64,000 nucleotides of DNA. Origin: Eoetvoesiella caeni. GTDB lineage: Bacteria > Pseudomonadota > Gammaproteobacteria > Burkholderiales > Burkholderiaceae_B. Each line of letters opens with the position of its first letter. The first letter of the stretch is position 1. The notes under the pieces are model-generated. The model had not been told where the DNA came from, did no database searches, and was given only the letters and a program-made list of their open reading frames with translations. The stretch spans positions 1-64,000 of the forward strand of contig NZ_QNRQ01000017.1 of the NCBI RefSeq assembly GCF_003315175.1, in the 5' to 3' direction. Shown here piece after piece: positions 30,504 through 47,074 of this stretch. Made by a program: the position numbers and the translations under genes.

Positions 30504-31142
30504 ATGAAATCATCAGAGCCTCAACAAACGAGTACCGCGCAACCTTCAATATCAATGTATTCAGATATGGGCTTACGCCGTGTGGTGATCATCATCGCTT
30601 TGGCAAATCTCGCGTACTTTTTCGTTGAGTTTGCGATGGCACGGCGTATCGGCTCCGTCTCGCTGTTCGCCGACAGCATCGATTTCCTGGAAGACGCGTC
30701 GGTCAATTTATTAATTGCACTAGCGATTGGCTGGTCGCCTCGCAGCCGTGCCCGCGTTGGCATGTTGTTGGCCGCCATCCTTCTGGCCCCAGTCCTGGCG
30801 CTATTGTGGACCGCATGGCAGAAGTTTAATGTTCCCACTCCTCCTGAGCCGTGGCTGCTGTCATTGACCGGTTTGGGCGCAATGGTTGTGAATTTTGGGT
30901 GTGCGCTCTTGTTGGCACGATTCCGACACCACGGCGGCACGCTTACTCGAGCCGCATTCCTTTCGGCGCGCAACGATGTACTGGCCAACATCGGCATTAT
31001 CTTAGCGGGCGTGATCACGCTTCAATGGTCTTCGGGGTGGCCGGATCTGATTGTTGGTCTTGCCATTGCGGCGATGAATGTGGACGCGGCCAAAGCAGTG
31101 TGGAGCGCCGCTAGGAAGGAGCACTTGGCGCCATCGGCATGA
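30504..31142 (+). CDS. CDF-like cation transporter
   Basis: 212 residues from the ATG at 30504, 13 bp after the ChrB-like stop; a longer frame overlapping that gene is rejected. Six hydrophobic segments are visible. The second helix holds FADSIDFLEDASVNLL, the place of the CDF metal-site Asp residues, and the later LSARNDVLANIGIILAG matches the second site in helix 5. No cytoplasmic C-terminal domain remains. CDF proteins export divalent metals by proton antiport. It belongs to the ChrB-led set. Confidence 0.75.
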   Translation: MKSSEPQQTSTAQPSISMYSDMGLRRVVIIIALANLAYFFVEFAMARRIGSVSLFADSIDFLEDASVNLLIALAIGWSPRSRARVGMLLAAILLAPVLALLWTAWQKFNVPTPPEPWLLSLTGLGAMVVNFGCALLLARFRHHGGTLTRAAFLSARNDVLANIGIILAGVITLQWSSGWPDLIVGLAIAAMNVDAAKAVWSAARKEHLAPSA

Positions 31143-31420
31143 AAGGCGCCGTGGTGCTTGGTGAAGTCGATTCTGGATATATCATCGCTTGGGTGATGAC
31201 AGCCTGCGGCATCGCGGGGCTGCATTTTTTCGATTCGAAGTGCTATCGGGGACTGCCATCACTTTGATTACCGCTGCATGCATATCTCTAATATATCGTT
31301 TTGGCGACGCAATATGCTGCGTTATGAGCATCATGTTGTCTGAGTCACTGAATTGGCGCAGCCGTTGTAATAAACACGAATACTCGGCCAATTGTCTTTA
31401 TTTGCTCGTAGGGGATTAGC

Positions 31421-32176
31421 ATGATGCTTTGGACCCATGCCGGACCTTCAGTCCTAGCCGCTTTTCTGGCTTCGCTGGTGGAATTTGTCGAGGCACTAAC
31501 CATCGTGCTTGCCGTAGGTACAGTCAGGGGCTGGCGTTCCGCACTAACAGGGGTGGCCGGTGGCGTGGTTCTGCTCGCTGTCATGATTATTGTTTTTGGC
31601 CCACTTCTGGGACAAATACCTATCAAGCTACTGCAATTATTTGTCGGGGTGCTTTTGTTGCTGTTTGGCATGCGCTGGCTGCGTAAAGCCATACTGCGTG
31701 CCGCAGGGGTCATCAAGCTGCATGACGAACAAGCCGCCTTCGATGCAGAAACGGCCCAGTTGCGCGCGACCAGTGTAAAGGCGGCATCCTCGCTCGATCC
31801 TTTAGCCGTGGCCACCGCCTTCAAAGCGGTATTGCTTGAAGGCATCGAAGTCGTGTTCATCGTTATTGCTGTAGGCGCCACCGCTAATATGCTTGTGCCC
31901 GCCAGCGTGGGCGCCGCTCTAGCAGGCGTCCTCGTTATTGCGCTGGGCGTAGCGCTGCAAAAGCCACTGGCTCGCATTCCAGAAAACGCACTCAAATTCT
32001 CGGTTGGCGTATTGATTTCGGCATTCGGCATTTTCTGGGTTGGGGAAGGACTCGGGCTGATTTGGCCAGGCGAAGACCTGGCGATTCTGGCGCTGGCGGC
32101 CGCGTTGCTTATTGCGGCGCTGGCTTCTGTCAAGCTTGCTCGCAATCGACTTCAATCTATGGATGATGCATCATGA
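31421..32176 (+). CDS. COG4280-like multi-pass membrane protein
   Basis: 251 residues with about seven helices. Two internal repeats each begin with a Glu-containing motif, SLVEFVEALTIVLAVG near 19 and LLEGIEVVFIVIAVG near 142, which face each other in an inverted-repeat fold as in the TMEM165/GDT1 and FTR1 cation transporters. COG4280 has no established function; a cation transporter is inferred from the acidic repeat motifs. It overlaps the next gene by four bases (ATGA). Confidence 0.68.
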   Translation: MMLWTHAGPSVLAAFLASLVEFVEALTIVLAVGTVRGWRSALTGVAGGVVLLAVMIIVFGPLLGQIPIKLLQLFVGVLLLLFGMRWLRKAILRAAGVIKLHDEQAAFDAETAQLRATSVKAASSLDPLAVATAFKAVLLEGIEVVFIVIAVGATANMLVPASVGAALAGVLVIALGVALQKPLARIPENALKFSVGVLISAFGIFWVGEGLGLIWPGEDLAILALAAALLIAALASVKLARNRLQSMDDAS

Positions 32177-32388
32177 ACGGACTGATCGAATTTTCGCGAA
32201 AATTAGGGCGCTTGTTCGTTGATGACGGAACTCTGGCGATTGCACTGATCGGATGGTGCCTGGCGGCCGGCCTGCTCTTGCCGGCTTTTGCCCCACATAG
32301 CGTCTGGAGCGCGCCCCTATTTTCCTTAGGATGCCTGCTTATTCTGATTGCCAATGTCACCTGCAGTGCTGCACAACACAAAAAGTGA
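32173..32388 (+). CDS. Small membrane protein coupled to the COG4280-like gene
   Basis: 71 residues with two hydrophobic helices (about 19-37 and 46-64) and a short basic end. It overlaps the stop of the upstream gene (ATGA) and so is translated with it. No family is recognised; an accessory subunit of the transporter is likely. Confidence 0.6.
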   Translation: MNGLIEFSRKLGRLFVDDGTLAIALIGWCLAAGLLLPAFAPHSVWSAPLFSLGCLLILIANVTCSAAQHKK

Positions 32389-32789
32389 TAATGATGATGT
32401 GTTGTTCATAGCCATTTATGTTTGGGATACGGCGACTAGCCCTTATGACGGACTGGTTTCTGCTCTGCATGTGAGAGCTAGATAGTAGCAATTATCCAAA
32501 TTAGGCATAATTTAGTCAGATGGGTTTTCTATTGAAGTGTGAAAATAAAGTCTGTCGATTTTTGCTCTCGAGGCAGATCCTTAGAAAAACTGAAGCAAAG
32601 TCTGTCGACCTACCTCCCCCAACTGAATAGCGCTTTCGAATTGAATTAAAGTCTGTCGAATGCTGCCCGCCACTATCAGACCAAGTCGCGACTACTACAC
32701 ATTATAAGTGTGGCGTAAACGGGGCTGTGTACGGTCTTATGCGCCGCACTCAAGGTGTATTTTTCGGCCCCCCGACTTGAACTGATCCC
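32389..32789. other. Intergenic boundary region with triple direct repeat
   Basis: About 400 bp without a gene, between plus-strand metal genes and the minus-strand catabolic cluster. It holds three copies of a 12-bp direct repeat (32547-32659) and, near 32778, a TGAACTGATCCCC sequence like the ends of some IS3-group elements. These suggest the edge of a past insertion. No transposase remains. Confidence 0.5.
32547..32659. repeat. Three direct copies of AAAGTCTGTCGA at 50-51 bp spacing
   Basis: AAAGTCTGTCGA occurs at 32547-32558, 32597-32608 and 32648-32659. On the opposite strand the flanks extend the likeness to TCGACAGACTTTnnTTC. Evenly spaced direct repeats of this size are typical of transposase-binding ends of Tn7-like, Tn5053-like or IS21-like elements, or of regulator arrays. 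TGTGAAAAT begins eight bases before the first copy, as a TGT-type transposon end would. Confidence 0.7.
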
Positions 32790-33455
32790 CTAAAACTGGT
32801 AGTGCTCTAGCGTGCTGTGGCCCTCATGCAGTCGAGCGATAGTGTCAACTTCATCCCTGTCTCGCTCTTGCGCTCTTAACACCACGTCGGCCGCATGATC
32901 CCGAGGAATCGCGACAACCCCATCAGCGTCACCGACAACCAAATCCCCAGGGCGGACAATCGTCTGGCCCATTAGTATGGGGGCGTTTATCCAGCCCAAC
33001 CCGTCGGTATCTTTACCTGTTCCTTGAATGCAGAAGCCTCTCGAAAAAACGGGCAGTCCGATACCGGTAAGCTTGTCTGCGTCTCTTACGTATCCATCAA
33101 TTACGAGCCCGCCGATGCCTCTCATCCTAGCTGCGGTTGACATGACCTCACCCCAATATCCGTGGTCGTATACACGGCTGGTGTAAACAACAAGAACGTC
33201 CCCAGGCTGTGCGATATAGATCGCTTTGTGCAACCACAAATTGTCGCCGCCCGGCATATGCACGGTAAGAGCCGGACCACATATCGACAAGCCGGTCGTT
33301 ACCGCTCGAATTGCCGCTGGTAACGCGCCTGTGCGGTCGGCCGCTTCATGCAAAGTGGCGGAAGATATAGCGTTCGCAGATTCAATGGTAGTGCGCTCAA
33401 CACGCATTATGTCGTGCTTGATTGTGTTGCCGATAAGCGCAGATGGATCACTCAT
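32790..33455 (-). CDS. RraA-family CHA/HMG aldolase-like protein, copy 3
   Basis: 221 residues from the ATG at 33455, which overlaps the upstream gene by eight bases; a longer frame to 33524 is rejected. Active-site segments are WGEVMSTAA, GGLVIDGYVRDAD with the catalytic Arg-Asp, and GDLVVGDADGVVAIP. These fit 4-carboxy-4-hydroxy-2-oxoadipate or 4-hydroxy-4-methyl-2-oxoglutarate aldolase, which cuts the LigJ product to pyruvate and oxaloacetate with Mg. It is one of three adjacent RraA genes and, with copy 2, keeps all key residues. Confidence 0.8.
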   Translation of the reverse strand: MSDPSALIGNTIKHDIMRVERTTIESANAISSATLHEAADRTGALPAAIRAVTTGLSICGPALTVHMPGGDNLWLHKAIYIAQPGDVLVVYTSRVYDHGYWGEVMSTAARMRGIGGLVIDGYVRDADKLTGIGLPVFSRGFCIQGTGKDTDGLGWINAPILMGQTIVRPGDLVVGDADGVVAIPRDHAADVVLRAQERDRDEVDTIARLHEGHSTLEHYQF

Positions 33456-34107
33456 CATGCCCCCGAGTCTGTAAATTGTGATACCCATGCATAGCTCGAG
33501 CGTCTCGAAGAGACAGGCCACCACGTACCGAGTGCCTTATCTCGTCTTCTGCGGTTTGGATGGCTTCTGCACTGGCTAACACTTGCTCTTCAAAGGCACG
33601 TGGCACGACGACTACGCCGTCTGCATCGCCGCGGACTAGGTCGCCCGGACACACACGGACATCGCCGATGTTTACGGGTACTTGCGTAGCTTCAACCTGC
33701 ACACGATCCTTTCCCGTACGCATCCAGTTTCCGAGGCTATAGATGGGATAATTCAGCTCAATACAAAGGGCTACATCACGGTTAACGCCATTAATCACAG
33801 TTCCAGCGACGCCTTTACGGCTCGCGGCTTCCGTCAGAATGTCGCCCCACACCGTAGCATCGGTGCGCCCGTTATTGTCTAGAACGATAACCGTGTCTTC
33901 ATCAATGTCATCGATATAGTCACCTACCGTACCGGGCGGCGACCCGGCTGGTCCATACATCAAAGTCCAAGCACGCCCGGCCATGCGGAATGTGTTAGAC
34001 CTAGGCATAATGCGATAGCATTGGCCCACCAGCCCGTGCTTATCCAGGGCGTCGCTGATCGTAGCGGTGTCCAATTGGCTTGCCCGCACTACATTTGCGT
34101 CTTTCAT
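33448..34107 (-). CDS. RraA-family CHA/HMG aldolase-like protein, copy 2
   Basis: 219 residues. The metal and substrate segments are intact: WGDILTEAA near 94, AGTVINGVNRDVA near 109 and GDLVRGDADGVVVVP near 168. It overlaps copy 1 by four bases and copy 3 by eight, so the three are co-translated. Copies 2 and 3 may be a heteromer or act on different substrates. The family includes the RNase E inhibitor RraA itself, but the catabolic context favours an aldolase. Confidence 0.8.
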   Translation of the reverse strand: MKDANVVRASQLDTATISDALDKHGLVGQCYRIMPRSNTFRMAGRAWTLMYGPAGSPPGTVGDYIDDIDEDTVIVLDNNGRTDATVWGDILTEAASRKGVAGTVINGVNRDVALCIELNYPIYSLGNWMRTGKDRVQVEATQVPVNIGDVRVCPGDLVRGDADGVVVVPRAFEEQVLASAEAIQTAEDEIRHSVRGGLSLRDARAMHGYHNLQTRGHDE

Positions 34108-34796
34108 TCTTTCACCTTCGCATTCTTTCCGCTACTCGAATGCAGCATATGTTCATAACTAGCCCCCATCACATCAATGATGTGGTCGCCGTTTAAAAGT
34201 GCCTTCGCCATAGCTGCTTCGCGCAAAAAGATCGTCTCCGCCACCTCGAGCACCTCGGCAACCTTCGCGGCTGAGACGAAAACCACTCCGCTACGATCAG
34301 CGACCACGTAGTCGCCGGCACGCACCCGGATCTGCCCCACGTGGATAGTTCCGCCTGTCTCTGCTTCTGCGATGCGTCCTCGCGCTGTGCGAGCCGTTAC
34401 GCCACGTGCGAATATCGGAAACTCATAGGTAATGGCTTCATCGATATCGCGCACCAGCCCTTCTGCGATTACGCCGGCCAATCCTTTAAGCTTCGCACCT
34501 AAAGTCAGTATCCCGCCCCAGCAAGCCGCCTCAAGTCCGGTTCGCTGCTCTGCAACAAGTACATCCCCAGATTCGGCAAGCTCGATAGCAGTCGTCCCGA
34601 GGTGTCTCGGGGCGCCACTTGGCGGCGCTGCTTCGGCCTGCGCTACCATACGGAAAGTCATTACCTTTCCGGCAATGCTGGCATTGCCTGAATACTGGGC
34701 CAATCCGCTTACGGCACCTTCTAAACCGAGTTTGTCTAAGGCGTCTGATACCGCGCAGGCATCCAGCCTGCGTAGTCGCTTTACATAGTCATTCAT
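34104..34796 (-). CDS. RraA-family protein, copy 1, with altered active site
   Basis: 230 residues with an AAGGA ribosome binding site. The fold segments are recognisable (AGVIAEGLVRDIDEA near 114), but the acid after WG is replaced by Gly (WGGILT) and the GDxDGVVVVP signature reads ADRSGVVFVS. The Arg-Asp pair remains. It may have lost or changed metal binding relative to copies 2 and 3. It starts the RraA triplet, 10 bp downstream of the solute-binding protein gene. Confidence 0.75.
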   Translation of the reverse strand: MNDYVKRLRRLDACAVSDALDKLGLEGAVSGLAQYSGNASIAGKVMTFRMVAQAEAAPPSGAPRHLGTTAIELAESGDVLVAEQRTGLEAACWGGILTLGAKLKGLAGVIAEGLVRDIDEAITYEFPIFARGVTARTARGRIAEAETGGTIHVGQIRVRAGDYVVADRSGVVFVSAAKVAEVLEVAETIFLREAAMAKALLNGDHIIDVMGASYEHMLHSSSGKNAKVKE

Positions 34797-34805
34797 GCTG
34801 CATCC

Positions 34806-35963
34806 TTAAGGCGCTTGCGCCGCCAATGTTTCGAACTCTACGTTCACTAGCTTCCCGTCTCGTTTTTCAACGCGACGGATATAAACGTTCTGCGTAATAT
34901 CTCGAGTCTCCGGGTCGATCTGGATGGGCCCGCGCGGGCTCTCCATTTGGAGATTGCGCAGAAGATCCATCGTTGTATCTACCGCGAGCTTGCCTTTTTG
35001 CGCTTCGACCACCTTGTAGATAGCGCTTAATGCGTCATAGGCACCTACTGCGATATACGTTGGCAGGCGGCCGTTATTCACATCTGCGTAGGCTTCCACA
35101 AACTTGTCGTTCTCGGGCGATGCATGGGTCTCGGTGTAATGATGGCTGCTTATGAGGCCGACGGCGTCGTCTCCGAGCGCAGGCAAGTTCATGGGAGCCG
35201 TAACTCCTCCGTCGGCCAGAACCCGAACTTTCTCGTGCAGGCCTGCATCTTTGAAGGTTTTAAGGAAAGACCTTGCAGTATCGCTGCTGGGCAGGAAGAG
35301 GTACACGGCATCTGCCTGCGAATCTTGGATACGGCGTATATAGGGGCTAAATTCAACCCCGGTTAACGGTACGCGCAGCTTTTCCAGGACTTCGCCGCCC
35401 CCCTCTGCGTAAGTGCGGCTGAAAGCATTCTCGGCGTCGATCCCGGGCGAGTAGTCAGCCACAATTGTGAAGGCTCGCTTGCTGCCGTTGCGCGCGGCCC
35501 ACGCCCCCAGGGGTCCGGTTACTTGAGCGAGCGTAAAAGAGACTCGAACTGAACTCGGGATTCGCTCCATTATTCCGGACGTGGCCGCATTCATGATTAC
35601 GAGCGGTGTTCCGGTCCCCGCGCTTACTTGGCCAATTGCCACCGCGTTGGGCGTGAAGATAACGCCCGTAAGAAAGTCTACTTTGTCTCTTATTACTAGT
35701 TCAGTAGCGGCTCGCTTGGCTATTTCGGGTGAGGGGCTTGGCACGTCTCGACGTATTATTTGCACCTTGCGTCCGGCAACCTCATCGCCATGAATATGTA
35801 GGAACGCCTTGATTCCTTCATCGAAAGCTGCGCCTCCGCTTTCGTAGTTGGGGCCCGAGAAAGGACCGATAACGCCGATCTTCAGCGGCGGCTCAGAGGC
35901 CAGAGCTTGGCCGCCGAAAACGGTGGCGAAAATTACTAACGCGGAATTAAAAATTCGCTTCAT
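34806..35963 (-). CDS. LIV-type ABC solute-binding protein (orphan)
   Basis: 385 residues with a signal peptide (about 1-22, ALA site). The mature part opens with PLKIGVIGPFSGPNYESGG, the type 1 periplasmic-binding fold of the Leu/Ile/Val family that often captures aromatic acids. No permease or ATPase lies in this cluster; the complete importer 14 kb to the right has its own binding protein, so this one may share that membrane complex or one elsewhere. Confidence 0.85.
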   Translation of the reverse strand: MKRIFNSALVIFATVFGGQALASEPPLKIGVIGPFSGPNYESGGAAFDEGIKAFLHIHGDEVAGRKVQIIRRDVPSPSPEIAKRAATELVIRDKVDFLTGVIFTPNAVAIGQVSAGTGTPLVIMNAATSGIMERIPSSVRVSFTLAQVTGPLGAWAARNGSKRAFTIVADYSPGIDAENAFSRTYAEGGGEVLEKLRVPLTGVEFSPYIRRIQDSQADAVYLFLPSSDTARSFLKTFKDAGLHEKVRVLADGGVTAPMNLPALGDDAVGLISSHHYTETHASPENDKFVEAYADVNNGRLPTYIAVGAYDALSAIYKVVEAQKGKLAVDTTMDLLRNLQMESPRGPIQIDPETRDITQNVYIRRVEKRDGKLVNVEFETLAAQAP

Positions 35964-35994
35964 TGTCTCTTCCTTATAAAAGTTCTGACGTCAA

Positions 35995-37224
35995 TCAGTA
36001 ATCGTGTGGCATTGCAGTTTGATGGGTTAGCGCCACCTCTTTGCGTTCACGGGCAGACTGCAGTAGCGCAAGCATGGCTTCAGCGCTCGCCTTGCCCCAG
36101 TGCACATCGTGACGAGGCGAGTTCCCCGTGGATAAAGCGAGCCGTAGATCGTTGAAAATCCCCTCGTACCCGGTTGATGGTGATAAGGCAAAGTTATGGG
36201 CACCGTGCTCGTCGTATAAGGTGAAGCCCGAAGGAGAAGACCTCATTTCGCCCCGTTCGCAAGTCAGGATGGTGATACCGAAATGCGGCTGGTACATTGG
36301 CGCGTGTAGCGGCAACTTCAGTGCGCCATAAGAAAACTGCTGCGCACGTTGTTCACTTTCACTTAGGCCTGCGTAGTGTTTTAGTTTTCGTCGCGATGAC
36401 GCATGTTGTGGGTCGCGTGGAGCACCAGACTCGTCCACCCAATCGTGAAATTCATCGCTATTGAAAAAGTCTGCCCCGCTATACACCGATGTAGCTGTCG
36501 TCCCGTCTTTAAAATCCCAAAATGCAGACGCTATAGTTTCTGTTGGCCGTGTTGGATCCAGCACTCCACACGACGCGCGAACGGAGCGCAGCTTTCCGCC
36601 GCCTAGTGTGCGAATAATTTCGATCTGATGCGGTATTTGATTGAAAACGATGCCGCCTCCCGCATCCGTGTCCAACTCCTCGGGACGACGTGGGCGATAC
36701 ATGAAATCTGTATAGTTGAGCGTTGTAATCATGCGTACGCGCCCGATGTGCCCTGCAGCTATAACGCGACGCATAGCTCGGATACCGGGATCGTAGGCGT
36801 GAGTATGTCCAACGACCAAGCACACGCCATACCGTTGAACCGCCTCCAAGATCGCATCACACTCCGCCAGAGTTAACGCCATCGGCTTCTCGAGTATGAT
36901 GTGCTTCCCGGCAGCGGCTGCTGCTATGGCATGCTCAGCATGAAATTGATGAGGCGTACCAATATAAACAACGTCTACCGCTTCGTCTTTGCAAAGATCT
37001 TGAACATTGGTATAGCCGTTGGCATCGAAATCATGCATGAACGCCTTTAGAGGCGCAGCGCGCGGATCGGCCGCTGCGACAAGAGAAACGCCGCCGTCCA
37101 ATTGCGCTGCTCGCACCATCAAGGCACCAGCCAACCCCAAACCCGCAATGCCCAAGTTAATAGGATGATGTGGGGCTGCGGGTTCCTCCACTAGTGAAGT
37201 CATGGCTGCGTCGCTAGTCGACAT
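35995..37224 (-). CDS. Gfo/Idh/MocA oxidoreductase, phthalate dihydrodiol dehydrogenase-like (Pht4-like)
   Basis: 409 residues from the ATG at 37224, one base after the upstream stop. A Rossmann NAD(P) site (GIAGLGLAGALM near 24) is followed by the catalytic EKPMAL near 115. YRPRRPEELDTDAGGG near 182 is a segment I associate with phthalate 4,5-cis-dihydrodiol dehydrogenase. It would oxidise a cis-dihydrodiol made by the adjacent Rieske oxygenase to a catechol-type acid. LigC, also of this superfamily, is shorter and less similar by eye. Confidence 0.78.
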   Translation of the reverse strand: MSTSDAAMTSLVEEPAAPHHPINLGIAGLGLAGALMVRAAQLDGGVSLVAAADPRAAPLKAFMHDFDANGYTNVQDLCKDEAVDVVYIGTPHQFHAEHAIAAAAAGKHIILEKPMALTLAECDAILEAVQRYGVCLVVGHTHAYDPGIRAMRRVIAAGHIGRVRMITTLNYTDFMYRPRRPEELDTDAGGGIVFNQIPHQIEIIRTLGGGKLRSVRASCGVLDPTRPTETIASAFWDFKDGTTATSVYSGADFFNSDEFHDWVDESGAPRDPQHASSRRKLKHYAGLSESEQRAQQFSYGALKLPLHAPMYQPHFGITILTCERGEMRSSPSGFTLYDEHGAHNFALSPSTGYEGIFNDLRLALSTGNSPRHDVHWGKASAEAMLALLQSARERKEVALTHQTAMPHDY

Positions 37225-37225
37225 A

Positions 37226-38566
37226 CTAAGTAGCTTCCGAATCTGCCTGCGATTGCGCCGCCAGGAAATCATCGAACGCGGACTCTGGTGCCAATGCAGA
37301 CAACGACAAGTTTCGATACAGGCTGCCATCGTTAGGCGCTGCCGGTTCGATCCCTTGCTGTAGCTGCTTGGCCATCTTTAATAAGATGCGACGGGCAGTG
37401 ATTACCGGAATATCCGAGGGCACCAGCATTTCGCGAGACCGATCTACAATCCGGCCCGGGCCGAGCCCGAACGCGCTAGGCATGTTCTCTTGCAAGGCTC
37501 GATCCTGATCTGTCACGACCTCGATCCCCGAATAGTTCACTTGTTTTTGTCGATTGCGATCCAGTCCATAGTCATTCTCTTTACGCGCCAGCGGCACCCA
37601 CGTGTCGATTACATAGCCATCGTCAAGCTCTACGGCCATTTCTTCTTTTGGCGGCGGAAAGGATGGCCCGCTTTCGAGGTAGTCCCACTCTTCAGAGGTG
37701 AAGGGCCGGTCTGCTCGATATGTATAGTTGAAAACCATGACGTTGTAGTCGTCCACGGGCACCCAAGCCCGCCCGGATCGTGGATACTCGCCGTTTGGAA
37801 TCATGCTGTACATGGGAACGAACCACTGCGTGACTCTCCATAGATACAAGCCGGAATTGTTATTTCGACGTGCGCCGTAAACCAGCCCATAAGGAGTTTC
37901 CTTAATCGTCATAACCGGCGCCCCATCTGTGGTTCCTGGTGGAATTGGCGCGGTGACCTTAACTACGGGATCCAACCAGCCCGCTTGCCCGAACTCTCGA
38001 TGCAGGAAGCTGATGTGTGAGCTGTCTATTTCACCTTCCATGCCTTGGGCCCAGTTGGTGCGTTGTAACCAGCGAGCCACGTGGTTCTGTTGTGGCTCCA
38101 CATCCAACCATTCAAAACCCGGCATATCGGGAGTCAAGTCAGACGGCCCCATATATACCCAGACCATGCCGCCTGCCTCACGTGCCGGATACGCGGTGAT
38201 GGAAGCTTTGTCTTTCAAGGCTTGCACATTCGACTTCGAGGGCAGGTTCGGAATATCAATACATTTGCCCATCGTGTCGAACTTCCATCCGTGGTACACG
38301 CAGCGCAGGCCGTTCTCTTCATTGCGACCAAAATACAATGGTGCGAGCTTGTGCGGACAATAGGCAGAAATAATGCCGACCTTTCCCTCACTATCTCGGA
38401 AAGCAACCAGGTTCTCGCCAAGTATCCGAAGTCTTCGGGGGGCGCAGTCTGGTGCGGGCAACTCCGAGCTCAATAGTGCCGGCAACCAGAAGCGGCGAAA
38501 CAGTTCGCCCATTGGCGTTCCCTGGCCAACACGGCATAGGATTTCGTTATCTTCATTGGAAAGCAT
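37226..38566 (-). CDS. Rieske ring-hydroxylating oxygenase (phthalate dioxygenase-like)
   Basis: 446 residues from the ATG at 38566 with AAGGAG seven bases upstream. The Rieske cluster ligands lie in CPH near 68 and CVYHGW near 87. The mononuclear iron site follows (EIDSSHISFLH, with two His near 181 and 186). Single-component alpha subunits of this length belong to the phthalate 4,5-dioxygenase group and work with a PDR-type reductase. None is in this cluster; the reductase at 46109-47074 could serve. Substrate: an aromatic carboxylate (inference). Confidence 0.85.
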   Translation of the reverse strand: MLSNEDNEILCRVGQGTPMGELFRRFWLPALLSSELPAPDCAPRRLRILGENLVAFRDSEGKVGIISAYCPHKLAPLYFGRNEENGLRCVYHGWKFDTMGKCIDIPNLPSKSNVQALKDKASITAYPAREAGGMVWVYMGPSDLTPDMPGFEWLDVEPQQNHVARWLQRTNWAQGMEGEIDSSHISFLHREFGQAGWLDPVVKVTAPIPPGTTDGAPVMTIKETPYGLVYGARRNNNSGLYLWRVTQWFVPMYSMIPNGEYPRSGRAWVPVDDYNVMVFNYTYRADRPFTSEEWDYLESGPSFPPPKEEMAVELDDGYVIDTWVPLARKENDYGLDRNRQKQVNYSGIEVVTDQDRALQENMPSAFGLGPGRIVDRSREMLVPSDIPVITARRILLKMAKQLQQGIEPAAPNDGSLYRNLSLSALAPESAFDDFLAAQSQADSEAT

Positions 38567-39653
38567 GTTGTACTCCTTGTATGCCTTTGCTAGGCACCTC
38601 ATAACCATCACGAACTACTTCCGTTTCTTTGTCGCGACGGGCGTGGCTTAGCGCCTTCTCTATAACGTCGCGACCGAGATCGCTTGTAATAAAAACGAAC
38701 CTAGAGCGGCGATCGCCGCTTCTCCAAGTTGTTAACTGTGTCGGCTCATGCAAGAGTCCTTGAACTCCATGAATTGCGAGCATCTGACCCTCTTCTGGAA
38801 GCCAAACCACACCTTTGATCCGCAAGATCTTCTTGCCGTGAAAGTACGCGAGGGTACCGAGCCAGTGACTGACCAGTTCCCAATCGAGGGGCTCATCGAC
38901 TATGAAAGAGTGTGATCGGACACGTCGATCGGGAGGGTGGGCAACGGCGGTCTTTGTGCCATTTGAAGTTGCCTCGTTATAGTCGTGGGTTAAATGATCC
39001 GCGAAAGCGGCTTCGCTGGCCCGGATCCATTCGTCAGCGGTTCTGCCGTCGACAGTTAATGTTTGCGGCGTGATAGTGTTGTCGGCTTCAGTAATCCGGG
39101 CATGTGGATTGAGCACCCGGATTCTTTTTTTCAACAGAGCGAAATCGGCGGGCGTAACCAGGCTCTTCTTGGTCATCACTATGCAATCGGCCTGCGCCAG
39201 CTGCCGTGCGCTCTCAAAGTGCTCGTCCAGTTGTTGCATGCCGTAGAAGCAATCTACCGTTACCAGAGTCGTTGCCGGTGCAAACGATGTGTTTAGCCGT
39301 GCATCGTTTTGCAAAGCCGCTAGCAGAGGGCTCGGATCAGCCAGTCCTGTTGTTTCAATTACTACACGTTTGAATGATGGCATGGCTCCACGTCGAGCTC
39401 GATTCAACATGCCCACCAACGTCTCTACCCAGCTATCCCCAAGGCTGCAACAAATACATCCGCTATCCAGAAGTACTGTTTTATCTTCGACGTTTTCTAG
39501 AAAATCTTGATCCAGACCGATTTCGCCGAACTCGTTGACGAGAACAGCTGTCCTTTCCCAAGCTGGATTGCGCAACAGCCTATTAAGTAAAGTTGTTTTG
39601 CCGCTACCTAGAAAACCTGTCAGGACGATTACGGGAAGTCGGGTCTCAGCCAT
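38553..39653 (-). CDS. COG0523 (CobW/G3E) metallochaperone GTPase
   Basis: 366 residues from the ATG at 39653 with GGAGG upstream. Walker A GFLGSGKTT is near 12, the metal motif GCICC near 64, and the switch region IETTGLADPSP near 95. The base-recognition motif is TKKS instead of NKxD. The C-terminal CobW_C domain has GVVWLPE. G3E GTPases deliver metals to enzymes. It sits between Rieske and extradiol oxygenase genes with overlaps on both sides, so delivery of Fe (or another metal) to one of these enzymes is likely (inference). Confidence 0.83.
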   Translation of the reverse strand: MAETRLPVIVLTGFLGSGKTTLLNRLLRNPAWERTAVLVNEFGEIGLDQDFLENVEDKTVLLDSGCICCSLGDSWVETLVGMLNRARRGAMPSFKRVVIETTGLADPSPLLAALQNDARLNTSFAPATTLVTVDCFYGMQQLDEHFESARQLAQADCIVMTKKSLVTPADFALLKKRIRVLNPHARITEADNTITPQTLTVDGRTADEWIRASEAAFADHLTHDYNEATSNGTKTAVAHPPDRRVRSHSFIVDEPLDWELVSHWLGTLAYFHGKKILRIKGVVWLPEEGQMLAIHGVQGLLHEPTQLTTWRSGDRRSRFVFITSDLGRDVIEKALSHARRDKETEVVRDGYEVPSKGIQGVQHAFQ

Positions 39654-40665
39654 CGCTTCCCTCCGGCACCCAGCATACAAAACCCATGGCATTACCTGTG
39701 CCGGCATCAGATCTATAGCAGGGAACGTAGTCGACAATGCGCGCCGGCCACTGCAATTCCGCCATTGCGGCGGCTAGTGGTATCCAGTTCTTGATCTCCG
39801 ACGAGCCAGATTGATAAAAGGATTCATCAATGGCATCAAACGCATCGACTTGCCCACTTTTTAGGGCATCTAATACGACCTTATCGAGTGCCTCGTCAAT
39901 GACGAAATGACTAAGGCCACCCGACGCGATAAGAGCTATGCGCAGGTCTTCAGGCCATGATTTCACCGCGTGCAAAACTGCCTGTCCGAAGTGACGACAC
40001 CGAGAAGCCGTTGGCTGATTAGGCGCATAGAAGGTATTGATAAACAGAGGAACCGACGGTATGACTCGATCACGCATTAGTTGCCGATAAACAAACCCGA
40101 AAGCGTGGGGTATTGTGGCATGGTGCTGCGGGAAGCCTCTTAGAACCGATACGTCGAAAGCGTCTTTGCCCAGAGACTGGACAATGTGTGATGCCAGATC
40201 AGGACAACCGGAATATTCAGCCCCACCTGGTGGGATATGGCCTGGAACGGAAATTGGTATTCCTATCGGCAGATTAGCCATTTTGCCGGCGTCATACTCT
40301 TTGTTGTAGATAGTCTCGCCGACATACGCAGCAAACGCGGGGATATTCTCGTCGCTAAACAGCTCCATCTGATCGTTGCCAAAAATGATGGCAACGTCGG
40401 GGCGCGCGCTTTCCCAAGTGTCTGCCAACTGCTGCAGCGCGAGCTGGCAACGCGAGTGCTTTGCCTCCCAAACGGAGGGCGTTACTTGGCCCGCAATATC
40501 GTCGTCCTTTCTTAGCGCTATCAGCTCATCGAAAGTGTAGGTGTTGCCTCGATAGCTGTGTGCCTGATTTGCCATGTCGGCGGGGATCCTCTGCCCCCAG
40601 TCGCTGGCAGGCGTCGACAGCATTGGCCCATGGGATGTCGCCATTCCAAGTACGACTTGCGCCAT
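39646..40665 (-). CDS. LigB-family (class III) extradiol ring-cleavage dioxygenase
   Basis: 339 residues from the ATG at 40665 with GGAG upstream. It opens with VVLGMATSHGPML (iron His near 12) and later has IIFGNDQMELF, GFPQHHATIPHAFG with further His, and SGGLSHF near 248, the pattern of catalytic beta subunits such as LigB. There is no separate LigA-like subunit gene. Iron-dependent meta-cleavage of a protocatechuate-, gallate- or dihydroxyphthalate-type compound is expected. It is followed by the GTPase and preceded by the hydratase. Confidence 0.82.
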   Translation of the reverse strand: MAQVVLGMATSHGPMLSTPASDWGQRIPADMANQAHSYRGNTYTFDELIALRKDDDIAGQVTPSVWEAKHSRCQLALQQLADTWESARPDVAIIFGNDQMELFSDENIPAFAAYVGETIYNKEYDAGKMANLPIGIPISVPGHIPPGGAEYSGCPDLASHIVQSLGKDAFDVSVLRGFPQHHATIPHAFGFVYRQLMRDRVIPSVPLFINTFYAPNQPTASRCRHFGQAVLHAVKSWPEDLRIALIASGGLSHFVIDEALDKVVLDALKSGQVDAFDAIDESFYQSGSSEIKNWIPLAAAMAELQWPARIVDYVPCYRSDAGTGNAMGFVCWVPEGSDG

Positions 40666-40693
40666 TCTTTTATCTCCAGATGCTTTTCGGTGG

Positions 40694-41695
40694 TTAGTCG
40701 ATATCCAGGTTGAACACCTTCTTGGCGTTATCTTCAAAGATCATTTTCTTTTCCGCGGGATTCAACCAATCAAACCCTTGGACGATCCGCCCGATGTCGT
40801 CGAACGTTCGGCCCGTCTGCGGGTTAACTGTTGAGCCAACCCCGGGGCATTCCGAACCGAACAGGCACCGATCTACTCCTACTGTCTTTATCAATAGTTC
40901 TAAGGCGTCGGCCGTATAAAGAACTGTGTCGTAATACAGCTTGCGCATCCGTTCCAGAAAGTCGATGCCCGCCCTCATGCCGCCAGATTGGAACCGTCCT
41001 AATTGATAGGGAATTGCTCCACCGCCGTGCGACACGACGATCTTTAACTGTGGGAAGTCGTTAAGCACATCTGAATTAACAAGGTTGTATACAGCGATGG
41101 ACTCTTCGTTGATGAAATGCAGGCTGTATGGTGACCTCTCAGAGTGAGAGCCGGTAGCGTGAACATGAGCGGGCATATCTAGCTCACAAAGCTTTTCGTA
41201 TAGGGGATACCAGTATCTATCGCCCAACCCGGGGCCCTCGGTTCCAGAGTTCTCATAAGGATCCGGGTTCAGTAGTACACCCTTGAAGCCCAACGCGTGT
41301 ACACGTTCAAGCTCAGGCAACACGTTGTCTATGGGTTCGCCTGCGGCTTGCGGTAGGCCGGCAACAGCGAAGAATTTATTCGGCTTAAGAGATATCTGTC
41401 GATGGATAACCGTGTTGACTTCTTCGCAAAACCAATGCACCAGACGCGCAGGTTTCTGCGAATGCATCATCTGAAAAGGACGCGGAGATATTAATTGAAC
41501 GTCTATACCTACTCGCTCCAACATATCCAAGTGGCCGGCCGGAGCCATTTCCACTTGGTTCATAGCTTCTAAAAGTTCGTCGTTGCTTAGAACGACTTTT
41601 CCTCGGCCGTGCGAGCCGCGATGGGAAAGAAGGGAGGCTTTGTAGGCCCATAATTCAGCAGGGGCGCTAATGTGCCCATGGCAATCAATAATCAT
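40694..41695 (-). CDS. Amidohydrolase-2-family hydratase, LigJ-like (4-oxalomesaconate hydratase)
   Basis: 333 residues from the ATG at 41695, chosen because MIIDCHGH is the family N-terminus with its two metal His; an upstream frame is rejected. HVHATG near 183 and VSHGGGAIPYQLGR near 230 hold further metal ligands, and LFGSECPG near 283 the final acid. LigJ-type enzymes hydrate 4-oxalomesaconate to the substrate of the RraA-type aldolase, matching the neighbours. Decarboxylases of this superfamily are an alternative. Weak ribosome binding site. Confidence 0.75.
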   Translation of the reverse strand: MIIDCHGHISAPAELWAYKASLLSHRGSHGRGKVVLSNDELLEAMNQVEMAPAGHLDMLERVGIDVQLISPRPFQMMHSQKPARLVHWFCEEVNTVIHRQISLKPNKFFAVAGLPQAAGEPIDNVLPELERVHALGFKGVLLNPDPYENSGTEGPGLGDRYWYPLYEKLCELDMPAHVHATGSHSERSPYSLHFINEESIAVYNLVNSDVLNDFPQLKIVVSHGGGAIPYQLGRFQSGGMRAGIDFLERMRKLYYDTVLYTADALELLIKTVGVDRCLFGSECPGVGSTVNPQTGRTFDDIGRIVQGFDWLNPAEKKMIFEDNAKKVFNLDID

Positions 41696-41749
41696 GACAA
41701 TCGATAACAAGAGTTGACGGGTTTGTATGTTCTGAGGCAATGTACTGAC

Positions 41750-41785
41750 TGGTTCAACCAATCGCAATAATGGTTCTCATTGGTT
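41750..41785. promoter_or_regulatory. Operator candidate between LigJ-like gene and GntR regulator
   Basis: TGGTTCAACCA (41750-41760) is a perfect 5+1+5 palindrome; TGGTTC recurs at 41771 and TTGGTT at 41780. The site is next to the regulator start and within the 90-bp divergent spacer, so binding there would block both genes. GntR/FadR proteins often use short TGGT-ACCA dyads. Confidence 0.55.
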
Positions 41786-42580
41786 ATGGCATACAAGTAC
41801 AAACCCCTAGTTCCTCTCGCCCCTCCTCTGAACGATCAGCCTGCAGTAGCTGAGTGCTTGGTGACCTTACGGGCGCTTATCCAGAAGATGTACGCTAAGG
41901 GAGGGCGCCAGTTGCCACCTGAACGGCGTTTGGCAGAGCAGTTGGGAACCGGTCGCAGCACTTTACGTAAGGCGTTAACGATTCTTGAAAATGAGAAGAC
42001 GGTTGTGCGGCACGTAGGGCGCGGCACGTTCTTGAATAGCGGCGCGGAAACAGCGCCGCCTCAATTGCAAGCATTGGCATCAAGCGGAGCTCTGGCAATC
42101 GACAGCGTCTCCGGTTTAAGCCCGCGCGAACTGATGGAAGTCCGCTATGTCCTTGAGCCTGCCACAGCCGAGCTAGCAGCTATTGCCGCTCGCCCGTCGG
42201 ACTTAAAGCAGATGCGAGAATGCTTGCGTAAGCGCGAACAAGCGCATCGGCTTGATGACTATGAGCACTGGGATTACGTCTTGCACATGAGCATTGCCGA
42301 AGCGACGCGCAACAGTCTGCTTACTGAATTGCTCGATCTTATTAATCGAATCCGGAAGACTGCAGCGTGGCGACAATTTCGTAGACCCTCTGTCGACCCT
42401 GATGTGCGTGCGATCTCAAACACACACCACCGCGAAATTGTCGATGCGATTTGCCGAGCCGATCCATCAGCCGCTTTTGAAGCGATGCGTAACCATCTGG
42501 GCGAGGTCTCACATCGGTATCAGCACTATTCGGATATGCAGGCTCCTACGCCATCTGTACAGCATCTGATCACGAAGTGA
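41786..42580 (+). CDS. GntR-family regulator of the FadR/FCD group
   Basis: 264 residues from the ATG at 41786; a TTG two codons earlier is possible. The N-terminal winged helix (about 24-85, ERRLAEQLGTGRSTLRKAL) is followed by an all-helical FCD domain (about 110-240) with Asp/His ligands for a carboxylate effector. FCD regulators usually repress catabolic genes until their acid substrate binds. It is divergent from the whole cluster 1, with a palindrome in the spacer. Confidence 0.85.
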   Translation: MAYKYKPLVPLAPPLNDQPAVAECLVTLRALIQKMYAKGGRQLPPERRLAEQLGTGRSTLRKALTILENEKTVVRHVGRGTFLNSGAETAPPQLQALASSGALAIDSVSGLSPRELMEVRYVLEPATAELAAIAARPSDLKQMRECLRKREQAHRLDDYEHWDYVLHMSIAEATRNSLLTELLDLINRIRKTAAWRQFRRPSVDPDVRAISNTHHREIVDAICRADPSAAFEAMRNHLGEVSHRYQHYSDMQAPTPSVQHLITK

Positions 42581-42667
42581 ATACGAGTGGGTACCTGCGC
42601 GGAGCTCCGACGGTGCCTTCATTTGGGGCAAGGGATTTTAACGTAGTTTTCCGCAAGACAAGCTCAT

Positions 42668-43312
42668 TCACCTGAGCCCCTGACCGTCCCCTTTGCATTC
42701 GGCCCATTCCGCCGCAAGCCACATCGCGAACTGTTCTTCCATGTGGGGGCTGCGCTTCATCAGGTGGCGGGCCACCTCTTGAGCGCTTTCAAACGTTCGG
42801 ATCGAAACCGGTTTCTTAAGCTCTGATAGCCAGCGAGCCAGCCGGGCCGGCGCGTCGGCGGGCAAGGTTCGCGCCAGGCCGAAGCCCTCGACATTGACCA
42901 GCCGCCGGATACGCTGAGGGCATGTTCCTGCATAGATCATCGCCACATTGCCGCCCATGCTGTGACCCAAAAGGTCAATCGGCGCGTTCGGCGAAATATG
43001 GTCGATGACCGCATCGAGGTCAGCGTAATAATCGTAGAACCAGTAGCTATCGCTGGGGCGCGAAGCGCTGCTGCCACCGAAACCCCGCCAGTCAAGGGCA
43101 ATGACTTCACGCGATGCGACCAGACTATCCACGAAACGCTGAAAAGACGCCCCTACGTCCATCCAGCCGTGGGCAAGGAGCAGCGGAGGAACGCCCGGCT
43201 CGGTGCCTTCTGGCGCCGGCCAGTATCGCAGTCGATACGACACACCGCTTCTGATCTGGATTTGCTCGGTCTTGCTGGGGCGTTCGGGGGTATAGGTAGG
43301 TATGGTGCTCAT
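42668..43312 (-). pseudogene. Alpha/beta hydrolase, C-terminally truncated
   Basis: 214 residues. The oxyanion segment LLLAHGWMDVG near 45 and nucleophile GHSMGG near 117 are intact. The frame then ends at about residue 205 with an unrelated tail after WLAAEWAEC, where family members usually continue to about 290 with the catalytic His. The break lies only 88 bp from the 3-prime end of cluster 1, so insertion or rearrangement there probably cut the gene. It is not NicD-like. Confidence 0.7.
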
Positions 43313-43387
43313 TCCATGATGTTAGCGCGTCTCGGGGCGTCGAGACTTTCACCGAACTCGCTGCCTGTAGAAAGGCTTGACGTAGAA

Positions 43388-43418
43388 CGCCCCTTTGACA
43401 GAAGCCGTCAAAGGGGCG
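43388..43418 (-). terminator. Terminator-like hairpin after cluster 2
   Basis: CGCCCCTTTGAC pairs perfectly with GTCAAAGGGGCG across a 7-base loop. It lies 50 bp past the last gene of the minus-strand cluster 2. The T-tract is weak. Confidence 0.65.
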
Positions 43419-43467
43419 CGGGTAGCGGGGCCGTTTGACGGCAGTGTTACTCAGGTCAAGAAGCTAA

Positions 43468-44457
43468 CTAGATCTTAAAACTATCGTACGTAGATGGATG
43501 GAACAGCTCGCTGACCTCAATCTGACGCGGCGACAAGCCCTGACGATGATGATGGCGGGTCAAGGTCTCGAGCACATGACGGTTAGGCTCGACACCATAT
43601 GACCAAAAGTCTTCGCCCATCAGTTTTCGGGCGGCCAGTATTTGCTCTTCGACAAACGGCAGCGTAATTTTTGGTGCCGATATATCGGTTAGCGCCGCAA
43701 GCGCTACGTCTTTCGAAGCGTTGAAAGCCTTGAACACAGCAGCCGGCAACCAGGCATGCTGTTCAACCAACGAGCGACGAATACCCACCAAATGCATAAT
43801 GGGGAAGATCTTGGTTTCAGCGTAGTAGGCCTTTGCCGCTGCGATCGGGTCGTCAAACAGCCAACCCACGTTGGGGTTGCTTAAGGCTGCGCCAACGGGG
43901 GCTCGCGGGGCAATGTAGCCGTCGATCAGTCCTTTGTCCAGCAATGACGAAATAGTTTCGCCTTTGGGGGCTTGTTCAAGACGAATTTTCGGGCCCAGAT
44001 CAAGGGTGATTTTTTCTTCGCGATCGGCCTTCTCAATGCCGCCCAATACCCAGGTAACGTCTTCGGGGCACACACCGTACTGATCCCACAACAACGCGCG
44101 TGCCCACACCAAAGCGGTAAGCTGATACTCAGGAATGCCAATACGGCAACCTTTCAGGTCTTCGGGCTTTTTAATGCGATCTTTGCGCACGTAAATAGAG
44201 GTATGCCGGAAGGTTCGAGACAAGAATACCGGCACTCCAACGTAGTCGCTTTCGCCACGAGCAAGTTTTACTAGATAGCTTGAAAACGAGATTTCCGCAA
44301 TGTCAAACTCTTGATGGCGGAAGGTACGAAAGAACGTTTCCTCGGGGGAAAGCGTCATACAGACGGGGTCGACCCCGTCAATTTGCACGGCGCCTGACAT
44401 CAAAGGCCTTACGCGATCGTAGTCGCCCATGGCGACAGATAAGCATAATTTACTCAC
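43468..44457 (-). CDS. 4,5-dihydroxyphthalate decarboxylase-like protein (Pht5-like)
   Basis: 329 residues from a GTG at 44457 with AAGGAA upstream; a longer frame is rejected because SKLCLSVAMGDYDR is the family start. The fold is that of a periplasmic binding protein without signal peptide. EETFFRTFRHQEFDIAEIS and a late HHHRQGLS segment resemble 4,5-dihydroxyphthalate decarboxylases. It would remove a ring carboxylate next to hydroxyl groups; in this cluster the substrate is likely a dihydroxylated pyridine carboxylate (inference). Confidence 0.78.
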   Translation of the reverse strand: MSKLCLSVAMGDYDRVRPLMSGAVQIDGVDPVCMTLSPEETFFRTFRHQEFDIAEISFSSYLVKLARGESDYVGVPVFLSRTFRHTSIYVRKDRIKKPEDLKGCRIGIPEYQLTALVWARALLWDQYGVCPEDVTWVLGGIEKADREEKITLDLGPKIRLEQAPKGETISSLLDKGLIDGYIAPRAPVGAALSNPNVGWLFDDPIAAAKAYYAETKIFPIMHLVGIRRSLVEQHAWLPAAVFKAFNASKDVALAALTDISAPKITLPFVEEQILAARKLMGEDFWSYGVEPNRHVLETLTRHHHRQGLSPRQIEVSELFHPSTYDSFKI

Positions 44458-44473
44458 GAATAGATTCCTTAGT

Positions 44474-45127
44474 TTATGCGTTGGGCAAAGTGCGCAGATA
44501 CTTAAGCGTGTCTTGCAGCGACACGACATCGCCATACTTTGCGTTCAGGTCAAATAGACTTTGCTCGTGCGCCGCAACCGATCGATCGCCAACCGCTTCA
44601 CGCACCACCATAGGGCGAAAGCCAGATTGCACGGCGTCAACTGCCGTGGCGCGCACGCAACCGCTGGTCGAGGTACCGGTAATAATCAAGGTGTCTATGT
44701 TGGAGGAAACCAAACGCGAAACAATATCAGTACCAAAAAAGCACGACGCGTATTTTTTGGGCAGACGCCCATCGGTGTCTTTGATGCGCAACCGTTCGTC
44801 GTACACGTGACCGTCGCCCTGAGCCATCAGGCTGGCCGAACCTTTTTGCTTAATCGCCCAAAGCCCGGCATCGCGCATATTCGGGTCGTCGTAACGCACA
44901 TAGGCCAACAACACCAGTACTCCTTTTTCGTGAGCTACATCCAGCAACTGATTAGTAGCCTCGATCGGGATAGACAGGTCGGAGCCGAGCGGTCGGCCGG
45001 GGTCAGTAAACCCCTTGGTCAGGTCAACAACAATCAGCGCCGGCTTATCGCCGAATCCTAGCGGCTGCCCAAAGCCACGCTCGAGAAAAAAAGCTTCTTC
45101 TTTTGCCAGGTTTTCTGCAGTAGTCAT
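44474..45127 (-). CDS. Isochorismatase-like cysteine hydrolase (amidase)
   Basis: 217 residues. The catalytic triad is visible: Asp in IVVDLTKGF near 35, Lys in LPKKYASCFFG near 124 and Cys in TSTSGCVRATAVDA near 157. This type includes N-carbamoylsarcosine amidase and maleamate amidohydrolase (NicF). After ring opening of a dihydroxypyridine an amide must be hydrolysed, which fits this enzyme. It overlaps the tautomerase gene by four bases. Confidence 0.8.
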   Translation of the reverse strand: MTTAENLAKEEAFFLERGFGQPLGFGDKPALIVVDLTKGFTDPGRPLGSDLSIPIEATNQLLDVAHEKGVLVLLAYVRYDDPNMRDAGLWAIKQKGSASLMAQGDGHVYDERLRIKDTDGRLPKKYASCFFGTDIVSRLVSSNIDTLIITGTSTSGCVRATAVDAVQSGFRPMVVREAVGDRSVAAHEQSLFDLNAKYGDVVSLQDTLKYLRTLPNA

Positions 45128-45336
45128 TTGTTTGATTCCGAATTTCGCGCGAATATCTGCTTCAGGGTTTCACCACCCACCCCCCAGCGCTCGGCCTCGA
45201 CATGCTCGAACATGACATTGACCGATTGCAACGGCACCTTCATTTCTTCGACCACCACCTCGGTGAGGCGCGAAATAAGACGCTCGATGGTTTGCGCATC
45301 GGGGCTCATGACACTACTTAACTTAAGAATAGGCAT
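45124..45336 (-). CDS. 4-oxalocrotonate tautomerase-family protein
   Basis: 70 residues beginning MPILKLSS, so Pro1 is the catalytic base after Met removal. Length and the later FEHVEAERWGVGGE segment fit the 4-OT family, although some catalytic Arg positions differ. It may isomerise an unsaturated dicarboxylate from ring cleavage. Coupled to the amidase (ATGA overlap). Confidence 0.75.
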   Translation of the reverse strand: MPILKLSSVMSPDAQTIERLISRLTEVVVEEMKVPLQSVNVMFEHVEAERWGVGGETLKQIFARNSESNK

Positions 45337-45347
45337 GACCTCACTCC

Positions 45348-46091
45348 TTATAGGTAAGAACTACCGCCGTTGATACCTAGATTTTGCCCAGTAATGAAGC
45401 CGGCTGCGGGGCCAGCCAGGAAGGCGATGGCTTCGGCAATGTCAGCGGGCTTACCACGACGCTTGATTGCCTGAACCTGAATAACCGTCTCGAATAGGTC
45501 TTCGATGGCTTCGAGCACGCCTTCTGTTTCAATCAGACCGGGGGCGACACAGTTGGCCGTAATACCAAACTCGCCGCCTTCTGTGGCCAGAACCCTCGTA
45601 AAACCCAATAGGGCTGCCTTGGTCGAGGCATACGCACTGACGCCCGGTATTCCCTCGTAAACAACAGCAGACGAGAAATTGACTACGCGCCCGTACCCAG
45701 CTTTTTTCATATGGGGGAAAACGGCCTGGGAGCAAAAAAACGCACTGTCCAGATTGACGGCCATGATCTTGCGCCACATATCGACGCTAGTGGCCTCCAG
45801 CGTGGCATGGGGGTAGTAGCCCGCATTGTTTACCAAGATATCAATGCGGCCCAGGTTGTTCATCACCTGGGCGGTGGCTTGGTTTACAGCCTTATCGTCA
45901 GTCAGGTCGACCACGTACGAACTAGCCTTGCCACCGGCCTGTTCAATAGCGGCGACGCTGTTCCGGGCACCCGCTTCATCAAGATCCCAGATTACGGCAT
46001 GCGCGCCCAGCGATGCGAACTTCTTGGCGGTTTCTAGGCCGATACCACGTGCCCCACCCGTGACTATCGCCACTTGATTTTCCAGATGCAT
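45348..46091 (-). CDS. Short-chain dehydrogenase/reductase (SDR)
   Basis: 247 residues. TGGARGIG near 10 binds NAD(P); NNAG near 87 and YASTKAAL near 153 with a preceding Ser give the classical SDR active site. It ends 11 bp before the tautomerase gene. Role in the pathway is uncertain; it may oxidise or reduce a ring-opened acid, or a dihydrodiol-like intermediate. Confidence 0.85.
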   Translation of the reverse strand: MHLENQVAIVTGGARGIGLETAKKFASLGAHAVIWDLDEAGARNSVAAIEQAGGKASSYVVDLTDDKAVNQATAQVMNNLGRIDILVNNAGYYPHATLEATSVDMWRKIMAVNLDSAFFCSQAVFPHMKKAGYGRVVNFSSAVVYEGIPGVSAYASTKAALLGFTRVLATEGGEFGITANCVAPGLIETEGVLEAIEDLFETVIQVQAIKRRGKPADIAEAIAFLAGPAAGFITGQNLGINGGSSYL

Positions 46092-46108: not shown

Positions 46109-47074
46109 TTAAAGATCCAAAACCAGTTTTGCAGACTTGCTGCGCCCTACACACACCATCATGTATTCGCCCTGCTCCTTTTCTTCGTCGGTCAGGACAC
46201 TGCAATGATGCTCGGGCACTCCTTCCAGCACCTTGGTTTCACAGCTGCCGCAGTAGCCCTCTTCGCAAGAAAAAGGCACGTCGATGCCGGCGCCCAGCAA
46301 TACCTCTTTGAGGGTCTTGTCCGCTGGAACATCCAGTGTGAGCCCTCTTTGGGCCAGCTCTATCTGGAAGCCTTGCGACTCTCCGGCCGATTCGATCAGC
46401 TTCTTCTGCTCGTCCACGCCAAATCGTTCAATAAAAAGTTGTGTCCGCTTACCGGCCTGCTCGAATTGCGTTTCGAGCTCAGTTAACATGGCACCGGGCC
46501 CGCAGGCGTAGACTGCAACGTCTGACTCCGCTTGCTCGACAATCTGCTTGATATCGATCATGCCCTTGACGTCTTGAGGCACCAGCGTGACGGTTTCGCC
46601 GTGCAATCTTCCCAGTGCGTCGGCAAAGGCCATGGACGCCGTATTTCGACCGCCGTAAACCAGGCTCCATGCTGCGCCCGATTGCTGCGCTGCGTCGATC
46701 ATGGGCAAGAGCGGCGTAATGCCAATGCCTCCGCCCACAAAGATGTACTTTTGCGCCGGCCGCAAAGGAAAATGGTTTCTAGGAATACTCACTTTGACGC
46801 TTGTGCCGACGGTGAGCTTTTCATGGATTTCAATCGATCCACCGCGACCGTTGCGCTCAATGAGCACTGCAATCTGATATTGCTTTCGGTCGCTAGGCTG
46901 CCCGCACAACGAGTACTGACGGATCAGCCCCGACGGAGTATGAATATCGATATGTGCACCTGGCTCCCAAGGAGCCAAGTCAGCGCCGCCCGAAGCGGCT
47001 AGCTGGTAAACCAGCACATCTTCGGCAGCCTTGCTAACCTCATGCACGATCAGGTTCTGTATTGCTGTTGTCAT
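46109..47074 (-). CDS. PDR/VanB-type oxidoreductase with C-terminal 2Fe-2S ferredoxin
   Basis: 321 residues. A flavin-binding barrel (about 1-100, RQYSLCG near 53), an NAD domain (VGGGIGITPLLPM near 111) and a plant-type ferredoxin domain with CEEGYCGSC near 270 and a last Cys near 306 follow in the order typical of phthalate dioxygenase reductases. It passes electrons from NADH to the neighbouring P450 and might also serve the reductase-less Rieske oxygenase of cluster 1 (inference). Confidence 0.88.
   Translation of the reverse strand: MTTAIQNLIVHEVSKAAEDVLVYQLAASGGADLAPWEPGAHIDIHTPSGLIRQYSLCGQPSDRKQYQIAVLIERNGRGGSIEIHEKLTVGTSVKVSIPRNHFPLRPAQKYIFVGGGIGITPLLPMIDAAQQSGAAWSLVYGGRNTASMAFADALGRLHGETVTLVPQDVKGMIDIKQIVEQAESDVAVYACGPGAMLTELETQFEQAGKRTQLFIERFGVDEQKKLIESAGESQGFQIELAQRGLTLDVPADKTLKEVLLGAGIDVPFSCEEGYCGSCETKVLEGVPEHHCSVLTDEEKEQGEYMMVCVGRSKSAKLVLDL

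Follow-up and report, generated by a model that had tools for sequence, protein, structure and literature searches.

A COG0523-type protein with an altered guanine motif in a meta-cleavage operon of Eoetvoesiella caeni, and its association with LigY-type hydrolases

The window analysed here, a stretch of 64,000 nucleotides from Eoetvoesiella caeni (NZ_QNRQ01000017.1, positions 1 to 64,000), encodes a 366-residue P-loop protein of the COG0523 (CobW) family (38553..39653, minus strand) whose gene overlaps both of its neighbours in a meta-cleavage operon, and within one bacterial family such genes recur together with the gene of a LigY-type hydrolase. LigY is a C-C hydrolase that is probably zinc-dependent. 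The favoured, though still tentative, explanation is that the COG0523 protein is an accessory factor presumed to be co-expressed with the LigY-LigZ-Rieske-RraA operon, which would supply or safeguard the metal of LigY in a supporting rather than an essential role. Once the operon for the meta-cleavage of a biaryl or aryl carboxylate is switched on, the protein would be made along with the pathway enzymes and would act on its putative client LigY, presumably by a nucleotide-driven transfer. Zinc is the favoured metal, and the characterised homologues YeiR and YjiA are described as preferring Zn in the accessible text of PMC7895991. Confidence in LigY as the client is held back by a LigY that functions in a cell devoid of this family, which contradicts necessity, and by the atypical sequence of the copy in the window.

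The operon and its relation to the DDVA cluster of Sphingobium

The predicted gene order of the operon is LigY-LigZ-GTPase-Rieske-Gfo/Idh-solute-binding protein followed by three RraA genes, and the shared minus strand, the overlaps and the short gaps suggest a single transcript. The first gene (40694..41695) encodes a LigY-type meta-cleavage C-C hydrolase of the amidohydrolase superfamily, assigned from PDB matches and the comparison with Sphingobium sp. SYK-6. Its best matches are the LigY structures 5vn5 and 6e6i (E 2e-162), which represent the 2,2',3-trihydroxy-3'-methoxy-5,5'-dicarboxybiphenyl meta-cleavage compound hydrolase, and the next group is that of 4-oxalomesaconate hydratase (E 7e-51). 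The histidine motifs DCHGH, PAHxHATGS and VVSHGGG, which we take to hold the metal-binding residues, are all kept. The second gene (39646..40665) encodes a LigZ-type class III extradiol dioxygenase, recognised by Pfam LigB and by 44% identity to the product of that gene in the SYK-6 DDVA cluster which has the LIGB hit. Downstream of the COG0523 gene follow a Rieske oxygenase (37226..38566) with Pfam Rieske and LigXa_C domains, the PDB matches of which include 9ina (312 bits) and 7fhr, a putative phthalate 4,5-dioxygenase (261 bits), and, as assigned by domain scan, a Gfo/Idh/MocA dehydrogenase (35995..37224) with its ATG just beyond the Rieske stop, a periplasmic solute-binding protein of the Peripla_BP_6 type (34806..35963) and three RraA-like aldolases (34104..34796, 33448..34107 and 32790..33524, the last with an uncertain start), all on the minus strand. 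A GntR/FCD regulator gene found by the same scan (41780..42580, plus strand, start uncertain) diverges from the operon. The initial annotation had described the whole as an oxygenase operon, which holds insofar as the Rieske and extradiol genes flank the COG0523 gene but overlooks the LigY gene at its head.

Several other features of this region can be noted. A cytochrome P450 gene (47118-48398) and a gene for a ferredoxin-reductase-like protein with Fer2 and NAD-binding domains (46109-47074) adjoin the operon, the reductase being a possible partner of the Rieske oxygenase. The catabolic region also holds a gene (43468-44535) for a 355-residue protein with no Pfam or NCBIfam match, for which a Pht5-type decarboxylase is a first guess. 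An Rfam scan of positions 31000-46000 of the window gave no match. In an alignment of the window dioxygenase (39646-40665) with its homologues in L093-L142 and L193-L199, 39 of the 40 LigZ-like proteins, including LigZ of SYK-6, carry [ND]DQ where LigB of PDB 1b4u has NDH, the histidine of which we take to be an iron ligand. The LigZ-like proteins instead conserve a histidine in a PHAFGF-like motif, and judging from this alignment LigZ may use a different set of ligands from LigB.

In its gene content the operon resembles the biphenyl (DDVA) branch of lignin catabolism. Like the DDVA cluster of SYK-6, which is given as LigZ-RraA-RraA-LigY with LigXa nearby in the accessible part of PMC6874591, it combines a LigY (69% identical) and a LigZ (44%) with RraA proteins, two of which are 50% and 63% identical to those of SYK-6. 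A second LigY-like gene of SYK-6 (G654 C1:2098877-2099875, L242) encodes a protein 64% identical to the LigY of the window. Unlike the DDVA cluster, the operon has a Gfo/Idh dehydrogenase gene after the Rieske gene, and its Rieske oxygenase is only 28% identical to LigXa, which together imply that the substrate may not be DDVA. The same succession of Rieske and Gfo/Idh genes occurs at locus L193, the products being 51% and 42% identical to those of the window. The pathway may therefore open not with O-demethylation of DDVA but with an aryl carboxylate that is dihydroxylated and dehydrogenated.

An atypical member of the COG0523 family

The reading frame of the COG0523 gene is complete and runs on the minus strand from an ATG at 39653 to a TGA at 38553. 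The extradiol gene (ATG at 40665, stop at 39646) overlaps its start by 8 nucleotides, while the Rieske gene, with its ATG at 38566, overlaps its 3' end by 14 nucleotides and has an AAGGAG-like site that lies inside the COG0523 gene; the overlaps on both sides that the initial annotation had pointed out can thus be read directly from the sequence. Its assignment to the COG0523/G3E family is likewise borne out by both Pfam domains, cobW (140 bits against a cut-off of 20.7) and CobW_C (74 bits against 22), and by an intact CxCC motif. Like YjiA, YeiR, ZigA and CobW the protein has both domains together with the P-loop (GFLGSGKTT), the ExxG motif (ETTG) and CxCC (GCICC), and the switch motif (NEFGEIGLD) is also intact. 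An alignment of 75 COG0523 proteins, from which identical rows, rows more than 99% identical to the window copy and rows with no recognisable P-loop had been dropped, shows C66, C68 and C69 as well as the Walker B Glu of ExxG to be identical in 75 of 75 rows. Unlike YjiA, CobW and ZigA, the protein stands in a meta-cleavage operon, has serine in place of the G4 aspartate and falls far below the NCBIfam equivalog cut-offs of ZigA (103 against 600 bits), CobW (120 against 332) and the YjiA type (143 against 361).

The G4 motif of the window copy is TKKS (residues 161-164), which departs from the [NT]KxD form; NKXD is the guanine motif named for the family in the accessible text of Haas 2009 (PMC2770081). 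The altered motif had been remarked on before and is confirmed, as the last G4 column of the alignment holds 72 aspartates, one alanine, one gap and a single serine, that of the window. Loss of this aspartate makes a preference for GTP doubtful here, and the protein is placed in COG0523 by descent, to judge from its sequence, with no claim to GTP specificity. A second loss of the aspartate in the family is seen in a Roseivivax plasmid protein annotated as ZigA (L035:10134-11345), where G4 reads NKVA.

An AlphaFold model built from a 16-sequence alignment reached a mean pLDDT of 74.8 with both domains present and the linker (residues 217-242) unordered; a single-sequence model (pLDDT 36) was useless. 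The modelled fold is complete apart from the linker, the tail and some of the switch region. Among PDB matches YjiA ranks first by both sequence and fold, with HypB and UreG lower in the fold list, and the low global TM-scores against YjiA (0.43-0.46) mean that the fold family is supported and the domain arrangement is not. The protein could not be placed in a tree of the 75 sequences, in which it sits on a long branch of 1.16, and a single clade for nine LigY-linked copies (the window copy, seven of one clade from the genus g66, and L052, with the Pandoraea copy left out) is neither shown nor rejected (p-AU 0.40).

The interdomain linker provides a further distinction. A cysteine pair (C-x2-4-C) is present in nine of ten LigY-linked COG0523 copies as against one of 65 others, its LigY-linked carriers being the g66 copies and the Pandoraea copy; the exception is the window copy, the linker of which has no cysteine. 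Seven of the nine carriers form one clade, so that they do not amount to nine independent cases. With neither the guanine determinant nor a linker site, the window copy may, as far as its motifs indicate, use another nucleotide, represent a binding-only form or be in decay. Decay of this kind, in which a once-useful accessory is drifting and losing its nucleotide specificity and linker metal site, would fit the only serine at G4 among 75 proteins, the absence of linker cysteines and the long branch, and is nevertheless quite improbable in view of the full-length frame, the preserved overlaps, the retention of all other motifs and the modelled fold, which is incomplete only in the three regions given above. 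It is very unlikely, though conceivable, that in one lineage the LigY-type hydrolases have gained a COG0523 protein dedicated to their maturation and equipped with a linker cysteine site, and that the window copy is a form of it which no longer discriminates guanine and works with another nucleotide or none.

Pairing with LigY in related genomes

LigY was found at E <= 1e-80 in ten of 268 genomes of the bacterial family, and in nine of these ten a COG0523 gene lies within the LigY cluster. The exception (G110, L225) has a LigY-like gene that is 57% identical and no LigZ nearby. Eight of the nine genomes belong to one genus (g66) and are not independent. The survey of this genus took in all 22 places matching the window dioxygenase at E <= 1e-20, with about 20 kb fetched around each, and a COG0523 gene is present at all eight LigZ-like loci with LigY and at none of the 14 without it (Fisher p 3e-6, uncorrected for shared ancestry). 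In all eight LigY loci it adjoins LigY on the same strand; LigZ has the same strand in six and the opposite in two (L096, L100). Two reading frames weighed as further members of the cluster (L098:10575-11651 and L100:5665-6762) have no Pfam match and no significant similarity to each other, and were set aside as probably spurious. The genome of E. caeni (4.75 Mb) has only four CobW-family genes, which together with the recurrence in related genomes puts the pairing beyond chance, and the genomic evidence supports a COG0523 protein that is coupled to the catabolic module and no passer-by. A literature search found no report of a link between COG0523 and LigY in the accessible text of the sources.

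The initial annotation had instead proposed that the protein loads metal into one of the iron oxygenases. This reading can draw on the genes that overlap the COG0523 gene on both sides in the window, on the presence of LigZ in every g66 cluster that has a COG0523 gene beside LigY, and on Nha3, a COG0523 protein which shows that the family can serve iron enzymes (PMC2770081, PMC9164220, accessible text). It is nonetheless quite unlikely, since a COG0523 gene is found at none of the 14 LigZ-like loci that lack LigY, several of which carry a Rieske gene, and SYK-6 has no CobW-family protein at all. Several of these 14 loci are distant LigB homologues (28-39%). The closest relatives of the window LigZ that were found (55-56%, L193 and L194) have neither COG0523 nor LigY and carry a LigJ-like amidohydrolase (36%) in place of the latter, and L193 lacks COG0523 even though its Rieske (51%) and LigZ (55%) are close to those of the window. 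The Rieske genes of the eight g66 LigY loci are only about 29-35% identical to that of the window. Since the COG0523 gene tracks LigY and not LigZ or Rieske across the loci of this genus, LigY is the better candidate for a client. A recurrence of the pairing in other genomes, which had been suggested as a check, is borne out in nine of the ten LigY-bearing genomes of the family, but it follows LigY and not the oxygenases. Against LigY stands the arrangement in the window, where LigZ rather than LigY directly precedes the COG0523 gene.

A general buffer or chaperone for zinc or another metal, which has no single client and serves the raised metal demand on induction of a catabolic operon, is a less probable but serious alternative. 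Close homologues are found in catabolic clusters of several kinds, beside genes for amidases, hydantoinases and transporters, and SYK-6 LigY works with no COG0523 protein, as a general role would allow; within g66, however, the gene goes with LigY and is missing from the other LigZ-like clusters, and the window has no Zur-box-like site (0 matches against 0.31 expected by chance for a pattern which we take to represent the Zur box). A hydrolase client such as LigY is favoured in turn by the genes sampled next to a small number of further close homologues, which encode hydrolases (Hydantoinase_B, amidase).

Reach of the pairing and comparison with known systems

The pairing of COG0523 with LigY is restricted to a lineage. 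Among the matches listed from genome contigs, a COG0523 gene is present at one of 31 LigY loci (L113-L143), 17 of which have about 10 kb on both sides; the LigJ-like loci L144-L192 (35-39% identity) were left out of this count. The gene maps kept one reading frame per overlap of more than 40%, by which the LigY of L131 was hidden. The one positive among the 31 listed, L130 of Pandoraea commovens, has its COG0523 gene transcribed divergently from the catabolic genes, toward a GntR gene. A CobW_C search of nine LigY genomes from the 31 loci listed found four with no such protein; the search for the cobW domain covered SYK-6 alone. No COG0523 gene was seen at the LigY loci of three plasmid records inspected of 23 that matched, the scan of genome contigs with the COG0523 protein alone gave no relative, and that of viral contigs with LigY gave none.

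The whole genome of SYK-6, unlike the window, is devoid of CobW-family genes, with no match to PF02492 or PF07683, and the same kind of search does recover its LigY. As LigXa, LigZ and LigY of SYK-6 work with no CobW-family protein in that genome, the COG0523 protein would be accessory and not essential. These enzymes would thus generally be able to do without it, and every reading with a dedicated client, be it LigY or an oxygenase, is weakened to the same extent. According to the accessible text of PMC12997858, LigXacd, LigY and LigZ of SYK-6 also work once transferred to P. putida, where 5-carboxyvanillate is obtained in a yield of about 30%, although this host may itself encode COG0523 proteins.

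The closest parallel in kind is Nha3, a COG0523 protein described as the activator of an Fe-type nitrile hydratase in the accessible text of PMC2770081 and PMC9164220. An iron client would therefore not be new for the family, contrary to what had been supposed. Like Nha3, the protein is encoded together with a candidate metalloenzyme client, and the two are likened by family and gene context and not by sequence; unlike the Nha3 system, the window shows no nitrile hydratase in a Pfam scan of 20 of its proteins.

The COG0523 protein of the window is a variant of a known family with a gene association that can be tested, a modest lead and no surprise by itself. The overlap with oxygenase genes had been taken as a pointer to iron, an interpretation that the wider comparison corrects. 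Few clients of COG0523 proteins are proven, and the pairing with LigY offers a concrete, testable candidate in the form of a soluble hydrolase, for which the LigY of SYK-6, functional in a cell that has no protein of the CobW family, provides a natural control.
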